Shown here: positions 11,046-36,760 of the stretch, piece after piece | How the letters are laid out: the number at the start of each line of letters is the position of its first letter | Position numbering within the stretch: the first letter of the stretch is position 1 | Source: an uncultured Acetatifactor sp. | GTDB taxonomy: Bacteria; Bacillota; Clostridia; Lachnospirales; Lachnospiraceae | Reading direction: 5' to 3' | Length of the DNA: 64,000 nucleotides | Assembly (NCBI GenBank): GCA_944384205.1 | Contig: CALWSL010000011.1 | Coordinates: 49,242-113,241 of the forward strand | Program-made: the position numbers and the translations under genes | The notes under the pieces: generated by a model | Seen by the model: the letters and a program-made list of their open reading frames with translations, nothing else | Told to the model about the DNA's origin: nothing | Databases searched by the model: none

Positions 11046-11060
11046 GCAGGAAAGAGGATA

Positions 11061-11084
11061 GTGTGAAAAATAGATTTTTCACAC
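11061..11084. repeat. Intergenic hairpin with GTGTGA/TCACAC ends (copy D), hslO-nadE
   Basis: GTGTGAAAAA (11061-11070) pairs perfectly with TTTTTCACAC (11075-11084) around a 4-base loop. It shares its terminal sequence with the larger elements at 21671, 28776 and 36645. Two copies of the palindrome CAAATTTG follow at about 11086 and 11104. Confidence 0.6.
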
Positions 11085-11139
11085 ACAAATTTGTGCTGAC
11101 GCTCAAATTTGAAGGTTACCGGTAGCATGGAGGATTTCT

Positions 11140-21127: not shown

Positions 21128-21676
21128 GTGACAAACATAATAGTGGTATTACCGAAGCTGGAGGACGCTAAGAGCATCAAAAATATTCTGGTGCGAAACG
21201 GCTTCCGCGTTACGGGTATCTGTACGACTGGGGCACAGGCGATTAGTCAGGCTGACGGTCTGCATGACGGTATTATAATCTGCAGCTACAAGCTGATGGA
21301 TATGGTATATTCTGAACTGCACGAGTATCTGCCCGCCGGGTTTGAGATGCTTTTGATGGCATCCCAGCATCTGATAAACGAATGCTATGGAAATGATATT
21401 GTGTGCCTGTCCATGCCATTGAAGGTCAATGATTTAATCAGTACCGTGGGAATGATGACGGAAGAAATAGAGCGGCGCAGACGAAGGAATCGGTTAAAGC
21501 CCAAGGTGAGGAGCGCCGAGGAGGAGGCTTCCATTCAGGAGGCGAAGGAGCTTCTGATGGCAAGAAACCATATGACGGAGGAAGAAGCACACAGATATTT
21601 ACAGAAAAGCAGTATGGACAGCGGAACGAATCTGGTTGAGACGGCGCAGATGGTACTGTCCATGATGAAAGCGTGA
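21128..21676 (+). CDS. ANTAR-domain RNA-binding antiterminator with degenerate receiver (NitR-like)
   Basis: A 182-residue response-regulator-like protein. Residues 1-115 form a receiver-like domain (NIIVVLPKLEDAKSIKNIL), but the place where the phosphorylated Asp is expected reads IIICSYKLMD, so phosphorylation is doubtful. A basic linker (ERRRRRNRLKPK) leads to a C-terminal ANTAR domain (IQEAKELLMARNHMTEEEA, ARG-type helices to 182) that binds paired RNA hairpins. A similar protein encoded after glnA in clostridia is the nitrogen regulator NitR. The start is GTG with AAGGAGGTG upstream. Its stop codon lies inside a hairpin repeat. Confidence 0.85.
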   Translation: MTNIIVVLPKLEDAKSIKNILVRNGFRVTGICTTGAQAISQADGLHDGIIICSYKLMDMVYSELHEYLPAGFEMLLMASQHLINECYGNDIVCLSMPLKVNDLISTVGMMTEEIERRRRRNRLKPKVRSAEEEASIQEAKELLMARNHMTEEEAHRYLQKSSMDSGTNLVETAQMVLSMMKA

Positions 21677-21735
21677 GAAGAAGTTCTAATGCTCACAGCA
21701 GTGGCTGTTTCGCAAAGAACTTCTATGTCTCACAC
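21671..21735. repeat. 65-bp intergenic hairpin element, copy A (ANTAR gene-dapF)
   Basis: GTGAGA and AGAAGTTCT on the left pair with AGAACTTCT and TCTCAC on the right. An inner ACAGC/GCTGT hairpin is also present. By my count it is identical to copy B (28776-28840) at 54 of 65 positions, with paired differences that keep the stem. The stop codon of the ANTAR gene (21674-21676) is inside the element. Confidence 0.8.
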
Positions 21736-21752
21736 GTAAGAAGGGAGAGCAT

Positions 21753-22619
21753 ATGAAATTTACGAAGATGCATGGCTGCGGCAATGATTATATCTATGTG
21801 AATGGCTTTGAGGAGCAGATCGCGCCGGAGAAAAAGCCGGATATCGTGCGCGTTTTGAGTGACCGCCATTTCGGAATCGGCGGAGACGGCGTTATTTTTA
21901 TCAATCCCGCTGAGGAAGCGGATTTTGAGATGGAGATGTATAATGCGGACGGCAGCAGGGCTGAGATGTGCGGAAACGGCATCCGCTGCGTTGCAAAGTT
22001 TGTATATGACAGGGGCATGACGGATGCTGCGCAAATCAGCGTTATCAGTGCCGGAAAAATAAAATATCTTGATTTGACAGTGGAAAAAAAGAATGCAGAT
22101 GACCGTGGAACCGTCACAAAAGTGCGTGTGAATATGGGAAGCCCGATTCTGACGCCTTCCCAAATCCCTGTGGTGGCAGACGGAGAACAGGTTGTAAACG
22201 AACCCATTTGGGTGGATGATAAGGAATACCGTATGACCTGTGTGTCCGTGGGAAATCCCCATGCGGTTATTTTTACGGAGGGCGTTGCGGATATGAAGCT
22301 GGAACAGATTGGTCCCTCCTTTGAGAATCACGTGCGCTTTCCCAACAGGATAAATACGGAATTTGTAGAGGTGCATGACAGGCAAACGGTATCTATGCGC
22401 GTATGGGAACGCGGAACGGGTGAAACCCTTGCCTGTGGAACGGGCTGCTGTGCGACAGCGGTTGCCTGTGTGTTAAATGGTTTGACGGATGATAAAATTA
22501 CTGTTAAACTATTAGGCGGTGAACTACAGATAGAGTGGGACCAAAAAGCGAATCTTGTTTTTATGACAGGCCCTGCAACTACTGTGTTTGATGGGGAAGT
22601 CGATATAGAGAAGTTATAA
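21753..22619 (+). CDS. dapF: Diaminopimelate epimerase
   Basis: Interconverts LL- and meso-diaminopimelate for lysine and peptidoglycan synthesis. The 288-residue protein starts with [17 protein letters not shown] and has both catalytic Cys sites, [15 protein letters not shown] and [11 protein letters not shown]. The RBS GGGAG precedes ATG 21753. It is followed 26 bases later by dapL, giving the two-step aminotransferase route from tetrahydrodipicolinate to meso-DAP. This implies DAP-type peptidoglycan. Confidence 0.96.
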
Positions 22620-22645
22620 GAAGATACCCCGGAGAGGAGATTGGC

Positions 22646-23866
22646 ATGGTTAAAGTAAATGATAATTTTTTGAAGTTACCCGGAAGCTATTTGTTTTCCA
22701 CAATCGCTAAGAAGGTGAATGCCTATTCTCAGGCTCATCCCGAAGCGAAGATTATCCGACTGGGAATCGGTGATGTGACACAGCCCTTGGCGCCTGCCAT
22801 CATTGATGCGCTGCACGGCGCGGTGGATGAGATGGCAAAGGCAGAGACCTTCCGCGGTTATGCCCCTGATTTGGGCTATGAGTTTTTGCGCAATGCCATC
22901 GCAGAGAATGATTTCAAGGCTCGCGGATGTGATATCAGCGCGGACGAGATTTTTGTGTCTGACGGTGCAAAGTGTGATTCCGGCAATATTCAGGAGATTT
23001 TCAGCCTGGATAACAAAATTGCAGTGTGCGACCCGGTTTATCCCGTGTATGTAGATTCCAATGTGATGGCAGGAAGAACCGGTACTTACAATCCTGCTAC
23101 CGAGACATGGAGCGATGTTATCTATATGCCCTGTACCGCAGATAATAATTTTGCGCCTGAGCTTCCGAAGGAAACTCCCGATTTGATTTATCTGTGTTTC
23201 CCCAATAATCCTACCGGTGCCACCATCAATAAGGCGCAGCTGCAGGAGTGGGTTGACTATGCGAATAAAGTGGGTGCGGTTATTATTTTTGATGCCGCTT
23301 ATGAAGCATATATTTCCGAGGAGGATGTGCCCCACAGTATCTACGAGTGTGAGGGGGCGAGAACCTGTGCGATTGAGCTTCGTTCCTTCTCTAAAAATGC
23401 GGGCTTTACCGGGGTACGTCTGGGCTTTACGGTCATTCCGAAGGAATTGAAGGTGGGAGATGTCAGTCTCCACGCACTCTGGGCGAGACGTCATGGCACC
23501 AAATACAACGGTGCGCCCTATATCGTGCAGCGCGCAGGCGAAGCGGTTTATTCCGAGGCAGGAAAAGAGCAGATCAAAAAGCAGGTTGCTTATTATATGA
23601 ATAATGCCCATTATATTTACAATGGTTTGAAGGAGGCAGGCTACACCGTTTCCGGCGGTGTGAACTCTCCTTATATCTGGCTGAAAGCGCCTAAGGGCAT
23701 GACAAGCTGGGAGTTTTTTGACTATCTGCTGGAAAAAGTAAACGTGGTAGGTACTCCCGGTTCAGGCTTTGGACCAAGCGGCGAGACCTATTTCCGTCTG
23801 ACTGCTTTCGGCAGCTATGAAAATACGGTGGAAGCCGTTGACCGTATCAAGAACGCAAACCTGTAA
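22646..23866 (+). CDS. dapL: LL-diaminopimelate aminotransferase
   Basis: A PLP enzyme converting tetrahydrodipicolinate directly to LL-DAP, bypassing the succinylase/acetylase steps. The 406-residue protein has the DapL opening [20 protein letters not shown], then [23 protein letters not shown], and the Schiff-base Lys in [18 protein letters not shown]. The length matches DapL rather than other class I aminotransferases, and the pairing with dapF supports it. A terminator follows at 23889. Confidence 0.95.
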
Positions 23867-23888
23867 TGCTGATTGCAGGTTCCTTTAG

Positions 23889-23914
23889 AAAGCCGTCTGG
23901 AAACAGGCGGCTTT
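23889..23914 (+). terminator. Terminator after dapL
   Basis: AAAGCCG (23889-23895) pairs with CGGCTTT (23908-23914) around a short loop. It is a modest terminator without a long T-run. Confidence 0.55.
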
Positions 23915-23942
23915 AAAGAATTACAGGGAGTTGGAGAAGGAA

Positions 23943-25079
23943 ATGAAAGAGAAGCGAGGACAAATTCTGTGGGGACTGTCGGGCATTCTGGTATTGGTGT
24001 CCGTGGCGGTTATGTATCTGGTTCATAGGGCGGTTCCATTTATGATGGATGATTTGTGGTATGCCACCAAGCTGTCCTCCGATACGCCGATTACATCCTT
24101 CGGGGACATTATCGAAAGCCAGATTTGGCATTATTATAACTGGGGCGGCAGAAGCATCACCCACGGAATGCTGCAGGTGACGCTGCTTCTGGGGGAACAT
24201 GCTGCGGACATTCTGAATGTGGCTGTGACGCTTCTTTTGGCGGGAACTATCTGCATTGTGGCAGGAAATGACGGAAAAAAGATGAGCTTTCCGTTTTTCT
24301 TTGGGGCAATCGGTATGTTGCTTGGGCTGAACGCTAACTGGAAAATGAGTATGTTCTGGCAGGCAGGCGCCGCCAATTATTTATATATTACCGTCTTTAT
24401 TCTTCTTTTTTTGCATTGTTATCTGCGGGAGGTGTCGGGAGAAGTAAGGAGGCTTCCCGGCATTACGCTCTGGATGATTCCGCTGGGACTTGTGACCGGA
24501 TGGAGCAATGAAAACATGGGTCCCGCCGCATGGGTAATCAGTGTGGTTGTAATTTTTCTGTGTATCAGGGAAAAGCGAAAAGTAAAGCTTTGGATGGTGC
24601 TGGGAAGTCTGTCTGCCCTCGCCGGAAGCATTCTGGTGGTTGCGGCGCCCGGCAACTTTGTCCGAAGCAGTCAGGTGGCATCCAACGAATACGGCGTGCT
24701 GTGGAATGTATTCTTACGCTGCTATGCGGAAAGTAAGGCGGCGTTGGAGTATCTGTTTCCGACCCTGCTGCTTCTTGGGTTCCTTTTGCTTATCAGCAAA
24801 GGCATGCTGCAGATTCCCATTGGCAGGAAAAATGCGTTGCTTTTGATTGCCGCGTTTGCTTCCTGGGGAGCCATGATTTTGTCCCCTCATTACCCGGACA
24901 GAGCCACTTTCGGCACCATGGTACTGCTTATCTGTGTGATTCTGTCGCTGACAAAGGATGTGCTTAAGAAGCGCAAAGAGCTGACGCCGTGGCTTTTCGG
25001 GGTGGCGGCTCTCATATGGCTGCGAGGTATGTATTTTCTGGGAGAATATCTGGCGTTATGCTGGGGTTGGATTAAGTAG
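23943..25079 (+). CDS. Polytopic membrane protein (DUF6056-like)
   Basis: A 378-residue protein with about ten hydrophobic segments and no signal peptide cleavage site. A short outside loop after the first segment carries FMMDDLWYATKLSS, and a YYNWGGRSITHG motif follows. An acidic DD after the first helix is seen in membrane glycosyltransferases of the GT-C type and in DUF6056 proteins, so a lipid-linked-sugar transferase role is possible but unproven. The start is ATG 23943, with GGAG 6 bases upstream; an in-frame TTG at 23931 is less likely. Another strand-matched gene follows after 63 bases. Confidence 0.65.
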   Translation: MKEKRGQILWGLSGILVLVSVAVMYLVHRAVPFMMDDLWYATKLSSDTPITSFGDIIESQIWHYYNWGGRSITHGMLQVTLLLGEHAADILNVAVTLLLAGTICIVAGNDGKKMSFPFFFGAIGMLLGLNANWKMSMFWQAGAANYLYITVFILLFLHCYLREVSGEVRRLPGITLWMIPLGLVTGWSNENMGPAAWVISVVVIFLCIREKRKVKLWMVLGSLSALAGSILVVAAPGNFVRSSQVASNEYGVLWNVFLRCYAESKAALEYLFPTLLLLGFLLLISKGMLQIPIGRKNALLLIAAFASWGAMILSPHYPDRATFGTMVLLICVILSLTKDVLKKRKELTPWLFGVAALIWLRGMYFLGEYLALCWGWIK

Positions 25080-25142
25080 GGATTTTAACGATACAGGATG
25101 AGTTAAAACGAGATTATAACAAATGACATATAGGAGGCAGAT

Positions 25143-26855
25143 ATGAAAACGGAAGCAGATTTACAGACGTTGCTTAGGCAGATAGACCATAAGGGGTATC
25201 CGGCGTACAAGGACACAAAGGGGAAATACCAGTTCCGGCAATATATTCTGTCTATCGATCATGTGCAGGGAGATCCTTTTGCATCGCCCTCCAAGGTCAG
25301 TATTCTGGTGCCGGGAAAGGCAGCAGGCTTTGATAAGAGCTGCTATGAAAATAAGTGCCGCAGGATTGCGTTTCAGGATTATCTTCTGCGCCGTGTGAGT
25401 GCGAAGATAAAGGACTATTCCTTCAAGGCGAAGGGTTCGGGAAAGAGCGGGCTTCTGGGCATCAGCCACCCCGGACAGGAAATTTTGGAGCGCAGTGCCT
25501 GTGCGGTAAATCCTGAAAACGGAGATATTACAATCCGCATGGAAATCGGGTTTCCTGCCAACGGCAGAACCATCAATGCCGGAGAACTGGGAAAGATTTT
25601 GTTTGATTTTCTTCCGCTTTGTGTGCGCCAGACATTGTTTGCCGCCTCCTGTCCCAAGGAGGGTCTGGAGAAGGTGCTGTTTCTGGCGGATGACCAGCAG
25701 TATATCCGTGAGGAGTTGAAAAAGCGGGGATTGGTGAGCTTTGTGGCAAACGGCGCGGTATTGCCTCGAAAGTCAGGTATTTCGGCGCTGCCCATGAAGG
25801 ACGCAAAGGCTTTTGGGTCTCCTGAGAGTATGGAAATCACGTTTGAGCTTCCCCACCACGGGAGGCTTTCCGGTATGGGAATTCAAAAAGGTGTGACGCT
25901 CATCGTGGGCGGCGGTTATCATGGAAAATCCACTTTGTTGGAGGCGTTGGAGCTGGGCGTTTATAACCATATTGCAGGGGATGGCAGGGAATATGTAATC
26001 ACGGATGACACTGCCATGAAGCTGCGCGCTGAAGACGGTAGGAGTATTCAGAAGACGGATATTTCCATGTTTATCCGAAATCTGCCGAACGGCAGGGACA
26101 CAAAGAATTTCTATACGGAGGATGCCAGCGGCAGCACTTCTCAGGCTGCGAACACGGTGGAAGCCATGGAGGCAGGGGCGAAGGTGTTTCTGATTGACGA
26201 GGACACCAGCGCTACTAACTTTATGATTCGCGATGAGCTGATGCAGCGGGTGGTGAGCCGCGACGTGGAGCCGATTATTCCCTTTATCGACAGGGTGCGG
26301 GAGCTGTATCATGAGCATGGAATATCCACAATTCTGGTGGCGGGTAGCTGCGGCTCCTACTTCCACAAAGCGGACTGTATTATCCGGATGAATCAGTATC
26401 AGCCTTTGGAAATCACTGCCTTTGCCAAAAAGGAAGCGGAGAATTTCCCATATACCATGGGAGACGTGGAGAAAGCAAAGGAGCCTGATTTCGGGCGGAT
26501 TGTAAAGAGGGATGCCGCCTTTGCAAGGGATGACCGCATCAAGATGCGCACGGACGGACTGGATGGATTTTCCATAAACCGTGAGGAGGTGGATATGCGG
26601 TATGTGGAGCAATTGGTGGATTCTGAACAACTGACAGCACTGTCATATATGTTGAAATACATGAAATTACAGGTCTTTGACGGAAAGAAGACCGTGGGGC
26701 AGGCGGTAGAGGAGATTTACCGCAGAATAGAAGAAAAAGGCTTTGTCGCCTTTTGCGGAGGCGGCAGTGTGATTCCCGGGAATCTTGCCATGCCCAGGCC
26801 GCAGGAGCTGTATGCGGCATTGAACCGCTGCCGGGCTTTGGTACAGATGGAGTAG
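25143..26855 (+). CDS. Predicted ABC-class ATPase (COG3044 type)
   Basis: A 570-residue cytoplasmic protein. The N-terminal 230 residues form a conserved domain of its own (IDHVQGDPFASPSKVSILVP). Then comes an ABC-like P-loop module with a Walker A-like IVGGGYHGKSTLLEALELG, a signature-like region around EDASGSTSQAANTVEAM and a Walker B AKVFLIDEDTSATNFM. DTSATNFM is characteristic of this ATPase family. A C-terminal domain ends with CGGGSVIPGNLAMPRP. The closest structurally known relative I recall is trypanosomal MRB1590, which binds RNA, so nucleic-acid remodelling is a guess. The cellular role in bacteria is unknown. Confidence 0.85.
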   Translation: MKTEADLQTLLRQIDHKGYPAYKDTKGKYQFRQYILSIDHVQGDPFASPSKVSILVPGKAAGFDKSCYENKCRRIAFQDYLLRRVSAKIKDYSFKAKGSGKSGLLGISHPGQEILERSACAVNPENGDITIRMEIGFPANGRTINAGELGKILFDFLPLCVRQTLFAASCPKEGLEKVLFLADDQQYIREELKKRGLVSFVANGAVLPRKSGISALPMKDAKAFGSPESMEITFELPHHGRLSGMGIQKGVTLIVGGGYHGKSTLLEALELGVYNHIAGDGREYVITDDTAMKLRAEDGRSIQKTDISMFIRNLPNGRDTKNFYTEDASGSTSQAANTVEAMEAGAKVFLIDEDTSATNFMIRDELMQRVVSRDVEPIIPFIDRVRELYHEHGISTILVAGSCGSYFHKADCIIRMNQYQPLEITAFAKKEAENFPYTMGDVEKAKEPDFGRIVKRDAAFARDDRIKMRTDGLDGFSINREEVDMRYVEQLVDSEQLTALSYMLKYMKLQVFDGKKTVGQAVEEIYRRIEEKGFVAFCGGGSVIPGNLAMPRPQELYAALNRCRALVQME

Positions 26856-26959
26856 TATATGCCGGGCAGCCAAAGAAGCACTGGAAAAGGAATATCATCT
26901 ATGGTAAAATGATATGAATTAATTTGGAGATTGTGTTAGGAAAAAGGAGACCCGGCGGG

Positions 26960-27940
26960 ATGAGCGATATCATTTTACAACTGAATCAAATACAGAAATC
27001 CTTTGAGGGCACCGAAGTTTTGAAGGGAATCGACTTAGAGATTGAGCGGGCGGAATTTATTACCCTTTTAGGATCTTCCGGCTGCGGAAAAACCACCACG
27101 CTCCGCATTATAGCCGGACTGGAAACGCCTGACTCTGGCAGCGTGCTTTTGGAGGGGCAGGATATTACTTCATTAGCGCCAAATAAGAGAAATGTAAATA
27201 CCGTTTTCCAGAATTATGCGCTGTTCCCTCATATGAGCGTGGAGGAAAATGTGGGTTATGGTCTGAAAATCAGAAAGGTACCCAAAGCGGAAATTGCGAG
27301 GAAGGTTTCCGAAATGCTAAAGCTGGTGCAGCTTGAGGAGTATGGAAAACGGCGTCCTGACCAGCTTTCCGGCGGACAGCGTCAGCGCATTGCCATTGCC
27401 AGGGCAGTGGTGAATGAGCCAAAGGTGCTTCTTCTGGATGAACCGTTGGGAGCGCTGGATTTGAAGCTGCGCAGGCAGATGCAGTTAGAATTGAAGCGCC
27501 TGCAGAAGCAGTTGGGAATCACGTTTATTTATATTACCCATGATCAGGAGGAAGCCATCAATATGTCTGACCGCATTGCGGTGATGAATCAGGGCGTGTT
27601 GGAGCAGGTAGGTACTCCCAACGAAATCTATTACCGTCCCCGCACAAGCTATGTGGCGGATTTTGTGGGAAATGCCAATATTATTCATGATGGAAGCGAT
27701 ACCTTTGCCATCCGTTCTGAGAATGTGCTGATAAACGGAGAGATTCCCTGTGTTCATGATGCGGTGGTATTGGAAAAGAGCTTTGCAGGAGGGCAGCTAC
27801 GAATTTTGTTCAGACTGTCTGACGGTCAGACTATAACGGCGAGCAGATACGGAATTGATGCAGATATACAGGTCGGCGGCAGTATCCGCATCGGCTGGAA
27901 GCAGGAACATGCGATAAAGGTGTTGGATGATGAAAAATAG
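26960..27940 (+). CDS. potA: Spermidine/putrescine ABC transporter ATP-binding protein
   Basis: A 326-residue ATPase of the polyamine importer. Motifs seen are Walker [12 protein letters not shown], the Q-loop in [13 protein letters not shown], the signature [10 protein letters not shown], Walker [12 protein letters not shown] and the switch His in YITHDQEEA. The C-terminal quarter (about 235-326) is a TOBE regulatory domain. The start is ATG 26960, with AAAGGAGA upstream; the frame extends 12 codons further without an RBS. The stop overlaps the permease start by 14 bases. Confidence 0.93.
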
Positions 27941-28781
27941 AAAAAGTAACTGGGCACTGCTTGCCCCGATGTATGTTTTTACAATTTTATTTGTGGCGTT
28001 GCCGATTTTGTATATGTTTCTATTGAGCTTTCTGACCAGAGCAGAGGTATGGGGCGTGGATTTTACCTTCACCCTTGACAATTATAAAAGGATTGGGGAG
28101 CCATTGTATCTGAATACCTTTGTGGAATCGTTGAAGCTGGCATTTTTATCCACACTTCTTGTCATGCTGATTGGATATCCCTATGGGTATTTTATGGCGC
28201 GGATGAGTGCAGTGTGGAAAAAGAGGATGCTGCTGCTTATCATGATTCCGTTTTGGACCAGTGCGTTGATTCGTCTTTATGGCTGGATTATCGTATTCCG
28301 TACAAACGGTGTGCTGGATAAGCTGCTGATGGGACTTCATATTACGGAGGAGCCCCTTAAGCTTTTGTATACGTATCCTGCGGTGGTTGTGGGAATGGTT
28401 TATTCCCTGCTTCCGTTTATGATTTTATCGGTGTATTCCAGTGCGGAAAAACTGGACTTCACTCTGGCGGAGGCAGCAAGAGATTTGGGCGCTTCCTCCT
28501 TCAAAGCATTCTGGACGGTAAGCTTTAAGCTGACCCTGCCGGGACTGTTATCGGGGGTGATTTTATCCTTTATTCCGTCTATGGGACTGTTCTTTATTGC
28601 AGATATTTTAGGCGGCAATAAGATTGTGCTGGTAGGAAGCGTGATACAGGAGCAGCTTACGAAGGGCAGGAACCAGCCTTTCGCAGCGGCGCTGTCGGCG
28701 GTTCTCATGGTACTGACAACACTGATGATTCGTATTTACCGCAAGGTAACAGGTACTTCGGAGCTGGAGGGACTAGTGTGA
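27927..28781 (+). CDS. potB: Spermidine/putrescine ABC transporter permease
   Basis: A 284-residue inner-membrane permease with about six segments. The EAA loop around [20 protein letters not shown] contacts PotA. The [12 protein letters not shown] and [12 protein letters not shown] segments fit the PotB subfamily, and its place between potA and potC agrees. Translation starts inside the end of potA (ATG at 27927 or 27930). The TGA stop codon lies inside hairpin element copy B. Confidence 0.9.
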
Positions 28782-28840
28782 AGAGAAGTTCTAAGGCTCA
28801 CAGCAGAGGCTGTTTCGCCAAGAACTACTAAACTTCACAC
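28776..28840. repeat. 65-bp intergenic hairpin element, copy B (potB-potC)
   Basis: GTGTGAAG pairs with CTTCACAC, AGTTCT with AGAACT, GGC with GCC, and an inner ACAGC with GCTGT. The element has the same length as copy A. Differences at positions 7-8 are matched by changes at 58-59, and position 20 by position 44, so the stem is preserved. The potB stop codon (28779-28781) lies within it. Confidence 0.8.
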
Positions 28841-36641: not shown

Positions 36642-36644
36642 ATA

Positions 36645-36704
36645 GTGTGAAAAGAATATCTAAGGCGTCAAAGTACAACGCCTAAGATATTCCATATTTC
36701 ACAC
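36645..36704. repeat. Intergenic hairpin with GTGTGA/TCACAC ends (copy C), gatC-gatA
   Basis: GTGTGAAA (36645-36652) pairs with TTTCACAC (36697-36704), and AATATCTAAGGCGT pairs with ACGCCTAAGATATT with one mismatch. The gatC stop is also written in a GTGTGA (36636-36641) nine bases upstream, as if the element end were duplicated. Confidence 0.75.
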
Positions 36705-36706
36705 AT

Positions 36707-36732
36707 GAGAATGCTTCTTCAGAAGCATTCTC
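36707..36732. repeat. Perfect 11-bp hairpin before gatA
   Basis: GAGAATGCTTC (36707-36717) pairs with GAAGCATTCTC (36722-36732) around TTCA. There is no T-run, so it is more likely an RNA processing or stability element than a terminator. Confidence 0.6.
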
Positions 36733-36760
36733 CCCAAAGAATTAATATAGGAGAATAAGT

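Follow-up and report, generated by a model that had tools for sequence, protein, structure and literature searches.

A composite palindromic repeat of gut Lachnospiraceae that very often abuts stop codons in the sense direction

Among the interspersed palindromic repeats of bacteria, two described systems come closest to the element reported here, and we draw on parts of the published accounts of both. Repetitive extragenic palindromic (REP) sequences are defined there by a GT[AG]G tetranucleotide at the foot of the hairpin, 0-2 nucleotides (nt) on its 5' side (PMC6006769). In Escherichia coli 446 of 4,072 REPs are reported within 15 nt of a stop codon, in a survey that extends to palindromes of some Bacillota; REPs less than 16 nt from the stop are described as lowering translation and stalling ribosomes, and REPs are also reported to protect mRNA (PMC12306157). 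The BOX elements of Streptococcus pneumoniae are reported to encode the stop of 36 genes, to make target-site duplications and to be over-represented between convergent genes (PMC3049150). Here we describe a hairpin family, called hairpin B below, that has three clear copies in a 64,000-nt stretch of an uncultured Acetatifactor sp. (Lachnospiraceae; assembly GCA_944384205.1, contig CALWSL010000011.1), referred to as the window. Composite palindromic interspersed repeats are a known kind of element; we found this hairpin family, its tie to stop codons and its orientation neither in Rfam nor in the literature searched. The main finding is one of placement: hairpin B very often abuts the stop at which the gene before it ends, and lies in the sense direction of that gene.

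Two of the copies in the window belong to a 65-nt class and lie on the forward strand, copy 1 at 21671-21735, where it overlaps the stop of an ANTAR-domain gene before dapF, and copy 2 at 28776-28840, where the stop that it overlaps belongs to the leading member of a pair of ABC permease genes (potB/potC-like). A preliminary description of this DNA had reported this pair with equal length and 54 of 65 identical bases, and our recount agrees (11 bases differ). The compensatory changes that it pointed out are both real: one joins GA/AG at positions 7-8 to TC/CT at 58-59, the other T/G at 20 to A/C at 44. Copy 3, of a 60-nt class, is at 36645-36704 on the same strand and starts 3 nt past the stop of gatC (its product identified by Pfam), before gatA; it had been missed, and was matched at 36643-36706 with E 2.3e-18 by R2, a covariance model built on 19 copies of that class and applied to the window with filters off. 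Copies 1 and 2 had also been placed in unrelated intergenic sites; these are no random places between genes, the stop of the upstream gene being inside the repeat in copy 1 (TGA 21674-21676) as well as in copy 2 (TGA 28779-28781). When copy 1 was used as query in a DNA search of the whole genome, copy 2 was found with E 4.9e-15 and the best further copy with E 3.1e-22, so that chance likeness is excluded. With their flanks included, copies 1 and 2 have folding energies between -28 and -34 kcal/mol on both strands, with z-scores of -3.6 to -7.7 against dinucleotide shuffles.

The placement was scored at 144 distinct sites. A list of 115 matches lost 6 that repeated another on the opposite strand and 10 that were partial or pieces of tandems, which left 99; 21 copies found with R1, a covariance model from five copies, in the source genome and in searches of 61 genomes brought the set to 120, and 25 more to 145, of which 144 were distinct. 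The copies fetched were the best-scoring matches and not a random sample, and the three weakest of the source genome (L111-L113) were left out. We call A the strand of the upstream gene (sense) and S its complement, and a reading frame abuts the element when its stop falls at -1 to +4 relative to it. On strand A, frames of at least 100 codons end inside the element or within 60 nt upstream of it at 114 of the 144 sites; the stop abuts hairpin B at 62 and lies farther inside the element at 40. Frames of that length on strand S gave not a single abutting stop, with 31 ending inside and 19 upstream. With a limit of at least 50 codons, frames ending at -2 to +4 were present at 58 of 120 sites on strand A, at 3 of 120 on strand S and at 48 of 2400 random positions. 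As frames that run into the element are nearly as common on the opposite strand, only the abutting class is a strong signal, and part of the run-in frames may be due to chance. The base preceding hairpin B on strand A is an A at 142 of the 144 sites.

That the stop triplets belong to the element's own 5' end is partly true. A stop triplet, in any frame, is found at that end at 109 of the 144 sites, whereas six shifted controls gave 23-42; where a long frame was present as well (87 sites), 62 use the triplet in frame. In copies 1 and 2 of the window the frame ends on the TGA within hairpin B, and relatives without the hairpin have the stop of the ANTAR gene at the same place. Stops in all three frames occur in 64 of 77 distinct copies on strand A and in 68 on strand S (the means were 33 and 25 for two kinds of shuffles); because both strands exceed the shuffles, three-frame stops are ruled out as the sole reason for the sense orientation. 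The genes upstream seem to be ordinary ones, with dnaK in six of the fetched genomes and ends that are S11-like, L23-like, atpG-like or sugar-permease-like; names such as dnaK, HPr, atpG, S11, L23, glnA and aspS-like in other genomes are presumed from the sequence ends by which we recognised these genes. At several loci where the frame runs into B and ends at -19 (L216, L224, L210 and others), the last residues of different proteins, such as ..KCEKNF, come from the element.

The 60-nt class consists of an 8-bp stem, a one-sided 3-nt bulge, a 9-bp stem, a mismatch (A.A on strand A, T.T on strand S) and a 7-bp stem capped by a 7-nt loop that is most commonly AAAGTAC on strand A (37 of the 77 distinct copies). 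The 65-nt class has the same two outer stems and a tip in which, on strand S, a GAA/GA internal loop separates a 3-bp helix from a 5-bp one, while an 82-nt class has a branched tip. Full-length copies fold at roughly -14 to -46 kcal/mol. Among 18 distinct copies of the 60-nt class, 17 of 24 pairs had changed on both sides, compared with 7.5 in shuffles, and 95.6% of the cells were paired, compared with 81.2% in shuffles, slid controls being all far lower. The unpaired features are equally constant, the mismatch being A.A in 73 of the 77 copies and the bulge AAG, ATG, AAA or ATA in 75. That lengths and unpaired features stay fixed while the stem sequence varies freely suggests that the element is recognised by its shape, and speaks against a simple palindrome repair. 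G.U pairs, with the loop-closing pair dropped, favoured the antisense strand by 25 to 10 in the 77 distinct 60-mers but by 7 to 3 in the source genome; the models were built on that strand, so that the bias may be one of ascertainment, and as a strand test this asymmetry is suggestive only. Rfam gave no match at gathering score in the whole window or in 11 element loci. A Histone3 match was below cut-off and outside the element, and two microRNA matches were far below cut-off, so none of them was accepted as a known RNA family.

Hairpin B is frequently the first part of a larger unit. At 121 of the 144 sites a second hairpin, A (for example GAAGAATGCC..GGCATTCTTC), begins no more than 5 nt past its end, compared with 16 and 7 in shifted controls, and the exact core of a further module, C (GTTTGTGCC), is found downstream at 31 sites, compared with 1 in the control. 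The B-A-C unit repeats in tandem with a period of 133 nt at two loci (L195, L207) and of 128 and 176 nt at a third (L184). In the window, copies 1 and 2 are hairpin B alone, neither hairpin A nor module C following copy 1, and hairpin A of copy 3 (ATGAGAATGCTTCTTCAGAAGCATTCTCC) lies directly after it at 36705-36733 on the forward strand. We also saw five B units head to tail in genome G061 (L190 555-847) and, in a Lachnospiraceae record (L030 2219-2304), a B of the 82-nt class with A and C behind a gene end resembling glutamine synthetase; in the window, a glutamine synthetase gene is the one preceding the ANTAR gene. A possible degenerate mini-copy, weakly matched and containing GTGTGAAAAATAGATTTTTCACAC, lies at 11059-11086 on the forward strand, 13 nt past the stop of Hsp33 (R2, E 0.064). 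Its hairpin is very short and seems to lack one inner arm, as does that of L111 (GTGTGAGAAGAATTTCTAATCTCACAC).

Copy numbers per genome are lower bounds throughout, as up to 150 candidates were scored in the source genome, 38 per genome across the genus and 17 per genome across the order, and the E-values of the models are rough. In the source genome, a draft of 44 contigs and 3.15 Mb, R1 gave at least 18 matches (15 at E 4.5e-6 or better) and R2 at least 34 distinct copies at E 7.6e-6 or better, which together with one copy found only by R1 makes at least 35, some of them in tandem. The DNA search showed some further copies with an extra inserted hairpin and others that were shorter, and three 60-mers were identical. 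R1 matched 15 of 61 genomes, the source genome included. Across the genus, matches at E 0.01 were present in 111 of 138 genomes, 16 of which have 31 or more copies (at least 31-39 matches each), and an even sample of the whole order gave matches in 17 of 295 genomes, ten outside the genus and some of them weak. Two named records carry hairpin B, a metagenome-assembled genome (MAG) of an uncultured Acetatifactor (L023) and a Lachnospiraceae MAG (L030). A genome of another genus (G316) has six identical 65-mers at different places behind unrelated sequence, with a common TA just upstream and the A and C modules downstream. This unit had no match in phages or plasmids and one exact pattern of the 60-nt class none in viral contigs, and carriage by phages or plasmids was rejected on these grounds. 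A dispersed repeat of the lineage, its structure kept by compensatory changes, is what the preliminary description had proposed from two copies; the covariance searches that it called for did find many others, in the genome and in the genus, with the pairing preserved.

Sites at equivalent genes are occupied in some species and empty in relatives. Not one of 80 related loci had a hairpin B adjoining dapF, the two matches in that set lying elsewhere. At the end of dnaK the hairpin was present in 6 of 30 loci, with different classes and stems (four of the 30 had no readable end, and the models gave no match at their dnaK ends), and it was missing from G010, the nearest genome by DnaK identity (92%). 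In five relatives without it (G016, G122, G006, G128 and G030; L245, L256, L263, L269 and L267) the interval from dnaK to the following gene contains another recurrent hairpin, of the form GCACAGGGCAT..CCTGTGC or close to it. At the end of the HPr gene hairpin B was found in 2 of 30 loci, those of G109 and G110 (L301, L300), two genomes whose HPr is 99% identical over 86 residues and which have a B at dnaK in common. At HPr they have different B hairpins followed by nearly the same hairpin A, and the junctions differ, FLKG* in G109 and FLKGSV* in G110, where the repeat provides the last codons and the stop; in the other relatives shown HPr ends one to four residues past the equivalent glycine. 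With occupied sites changing in this way from one related species to another, the element looks like a repeat that spreads and not like a fixed operon regulator, and the family behaves as if restricted to, or directed at, the ends of genes in a single orientation. The initial interpretation, partly supported by all this, had missed the sense-direction tie to stops, the composite build of B, A and C, and the turnover of sites between related species.

Compared with the described systems, hairpin B resembles BOX in being a composite of separate stem-loop modules, some in tandem, with many copies, with gene stops that are sometimes encoded by the repeat and with terminal inverted repeats that pair within the fold, as far as BOX is described in the parts of PMC3049150 used here. 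The modules are distinct and come in fixed order, as the counts for A and C given above indicate. It differs from BOX in its lineage, in the lack of a target duplication at the flanks of B and in the tight sense-side tie to stops, where BOX is reported with duplications and a bias to convergent genes (PMC3049150); the likeness is one of description and not of compared module sequences. With REPs and the bacterial interspersed mosaic elements (BIMEs) built from them it shares dispersed extragenic hairpins, single or in mosaic clusters, a short bulge in the stem and, for some elements, a position within 15 nt of a stop (reported in PMC6006769 and PMC12306157), this last being the range given for REPs as translational regulators, in which the 62 abutting sites fall. 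However, hairpin B is larger, and the GT[AG]G foot was found at 1 of 144 sites on the sense strand and at none on the other. The Y1 transposase family PF01797 is present in 49 of 138 genomes, among them the source genome, and absent from 11 of the 16 genomes that are richest in copies (at least 31 each), and no B was found within about 1.5 kb of 10 Y1 loci. The source genome has one full-length Y1 (IS200/REP-type) transposase gene (G000:C23:39437-39793, L145), with no B in its 3-kb locus. A REP with a Y1 transposase was rejected, as the foot motif is missing and no linkage showed at these Y1 loci.

Two further kinds of element were considered. Like miniature inverted-repeat transposable elements (MITEs), hairpin B is short, heavily base-paired and present in many copies with terminal inverted repeats; it differs from them in that no target duplication was seen at the flanks of B and, in the source genome, no half-element within 3 mismatches that could mark a partner insertion sequence. 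Direct repeats of 2-7 nt at the flanks of B numbered 4, 3, 5, 0, 0 and 0, compared with shuffled-partner means of 5.5, 2.4, 3.3, 0.4, 0.2 and 0, a search that covered the flanks of B and not those of the whole B-A-C unit. A search with one arm in that one genome (up to 3 mismatches) placed 15 of 16 matches in copies already listed and one in a weak degenerate match. Neither the duplication nor the partner insertion sequence expected of such a MITE was therefore found at the flanks of B or with that arm. The attC sites of integrons offer a likeness of geometry: two paired boxes stay constant, a spacer is left unpaired and the tip varies, shape being kept over sequence and the site lying behind a gene (PMC2727003, in the part used here). 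Hairpin B differs in adjoining ordinary chromosomal genes instead of cassettes and in having no R-box: the boxes RYYYAAC / GTTRRRY were found at the ends of none of the 144 sites in each arrangement tried. The integron integrase TIGR02249 was over cut-off in none of 138 genomes, where weaker tyrosine-recombinase matches were present in 135 (controls, 14 of 14). An integron attC was rejected because boxes and integrase over cut-off are both absent.

We think it probable, if well short of certain, that hairpin B is the core of a composite palindromic repeat, dispersed and non-autonomous and akin in kind to BOX and BIME elements, which sits at stops, spreads and shapes mRNA ends. It would spread through a trans-acting machinery or by recombination among copies and would be tolerated at gene ends since the protein is left almost intact. 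Once transcribed it would fold into a hairpin where the upstream gene stops and, by analogy with the REPs of E. coli, could keep 3' exonucleases off the upstream mRNA and slow ribosomes as they terminate; effects on mRNA and translation of the REP/BOX type are probably the likeliest for hairpin B too. A role in mRNA processing or differential stability is plausible to judge from the arrangement of the genes, because both flanking open reading frames run in the sense direction of the element at 34 of 45 loci. Several observations sit badly with this explanation. No mobilising enzyme, target duplication or autonomous partner came out of the tests for a REP transposase, an integron integrase, duplications at the flanks of B and a partner in the source genome. 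There is no long frame at 30 of the 144 sites, 12 of the 114 long strand-A frames stop 5-60 nt upstream of B, and frames running into it are little commoner in sense than on the other strand (40 and 31 of 144). In G026 (L235 500-830) and in the Acetatifactor MAG (L023 6590-6751) a sense B ends a T-box-like leader before an aspS-like gene, which is not a gene end (the Rfam T-box match of L235 has E 2.9e-7, yet is under the gathering score). Finally, one and the same gene, dnaK, carries B in several species, which could be an old function.

The strongest rival, in line with the preliminary description, makes hairpin B a cis-acting RNA selected by the host: a hairpin of the 3' untranslated region or between cistrons, which a host protein binds or cuts and which is inherited and retained because it controls genes. 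The strong covariation with constant bulge, mismatch and lengths, the sense orientation with its anchoring at stops, and the recurrence of genes such as dnaK would all fit, but the patchy occupancy of orthologous sites, the identical copies at unrelated loci and the 27 of 138 genus genomes without a match (weak copies may have been missed) do not, and we regard this explanation as rather unlikely. Covariation alone is no proof of selection on RNA, because template-switch repair of palindromes can also yield paired changes. Neutral palindromes kept by such repair between arms, with an unselected structure, are nevertheless highly improbable, given that arm-to-arm correction should erase the bulge and the A.A mismatch, which persist in 75 and 73 of the 77 copies; the reading is in any case incomplete, as it leaves the placement unexplained. 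Ordinary intrinsic terminators, which would also account for hairpins at gene ends with a second hairpin often next to them, are scarcely credible. No U run follows B (a T is found at 4-13 of 144 sites at each of the positions +2 to +6, and at 36 at +1), on which ground the plain intrinsic terminator was rejected; moreover, the copies have a common sequence and length and are sometimes identical, and some lie within one operon, as between gatC and gatA.

The remaining alternatives make the folded DNA strand the object of recognition. It is decidedly unlikely, in our judgement, that hairpin B is an attC-like mobile hairpin outside integrons, whose insertion machinery would find the 3' ends and the direction of genes, for instance where transcription or translation leaves single strands open, would recognise the folded strand by its shape and not its sequence, and would thus be able to exchange whole hairpins at one stop. 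A structure-recognised recombination site in single-stranded DNA, attC-like or of the HUH-transposase kind, with the antisense strand folding and being cut and the targeting machinery accounting for the anchoring at stops, is very unlikely. Its geometry of two constant stems, one-sided unpaired spacer and variable tip would match that described for attC (PMC2727003, in part), and the exchange of a whole hairpin at one site, as seen at HPr in G109 and G110, and the weak antisense-strand excess of G.U pairs would agree with it. Yet the latter may reflect the strand on which the models were built (7 to 3 in the source genome), and the sites show neither attC boxes nor a REP foot, the 138 genomes no integron integrase over cut-off, and most of the copy-rich genomes no PF01797.

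Small interspersed repeats usually cluster only loosely near gene ends. The family of hairpin B combines a one-orientation tie to stop codons with copy numbers that reach at least 31 in 16 of the 138 genus genomes and with turnover between close relatives, and thereby makes it testable how a non-coding repeat reaches the ends of genes. It also makes testable how a hairpin at the stop codon alters mRNA decay and the termination of translation in these bacteria. The finding matters for annotation as well, since in some genes, such as the HPr gene of G110, the last codons and the stop are provided by the repeat.

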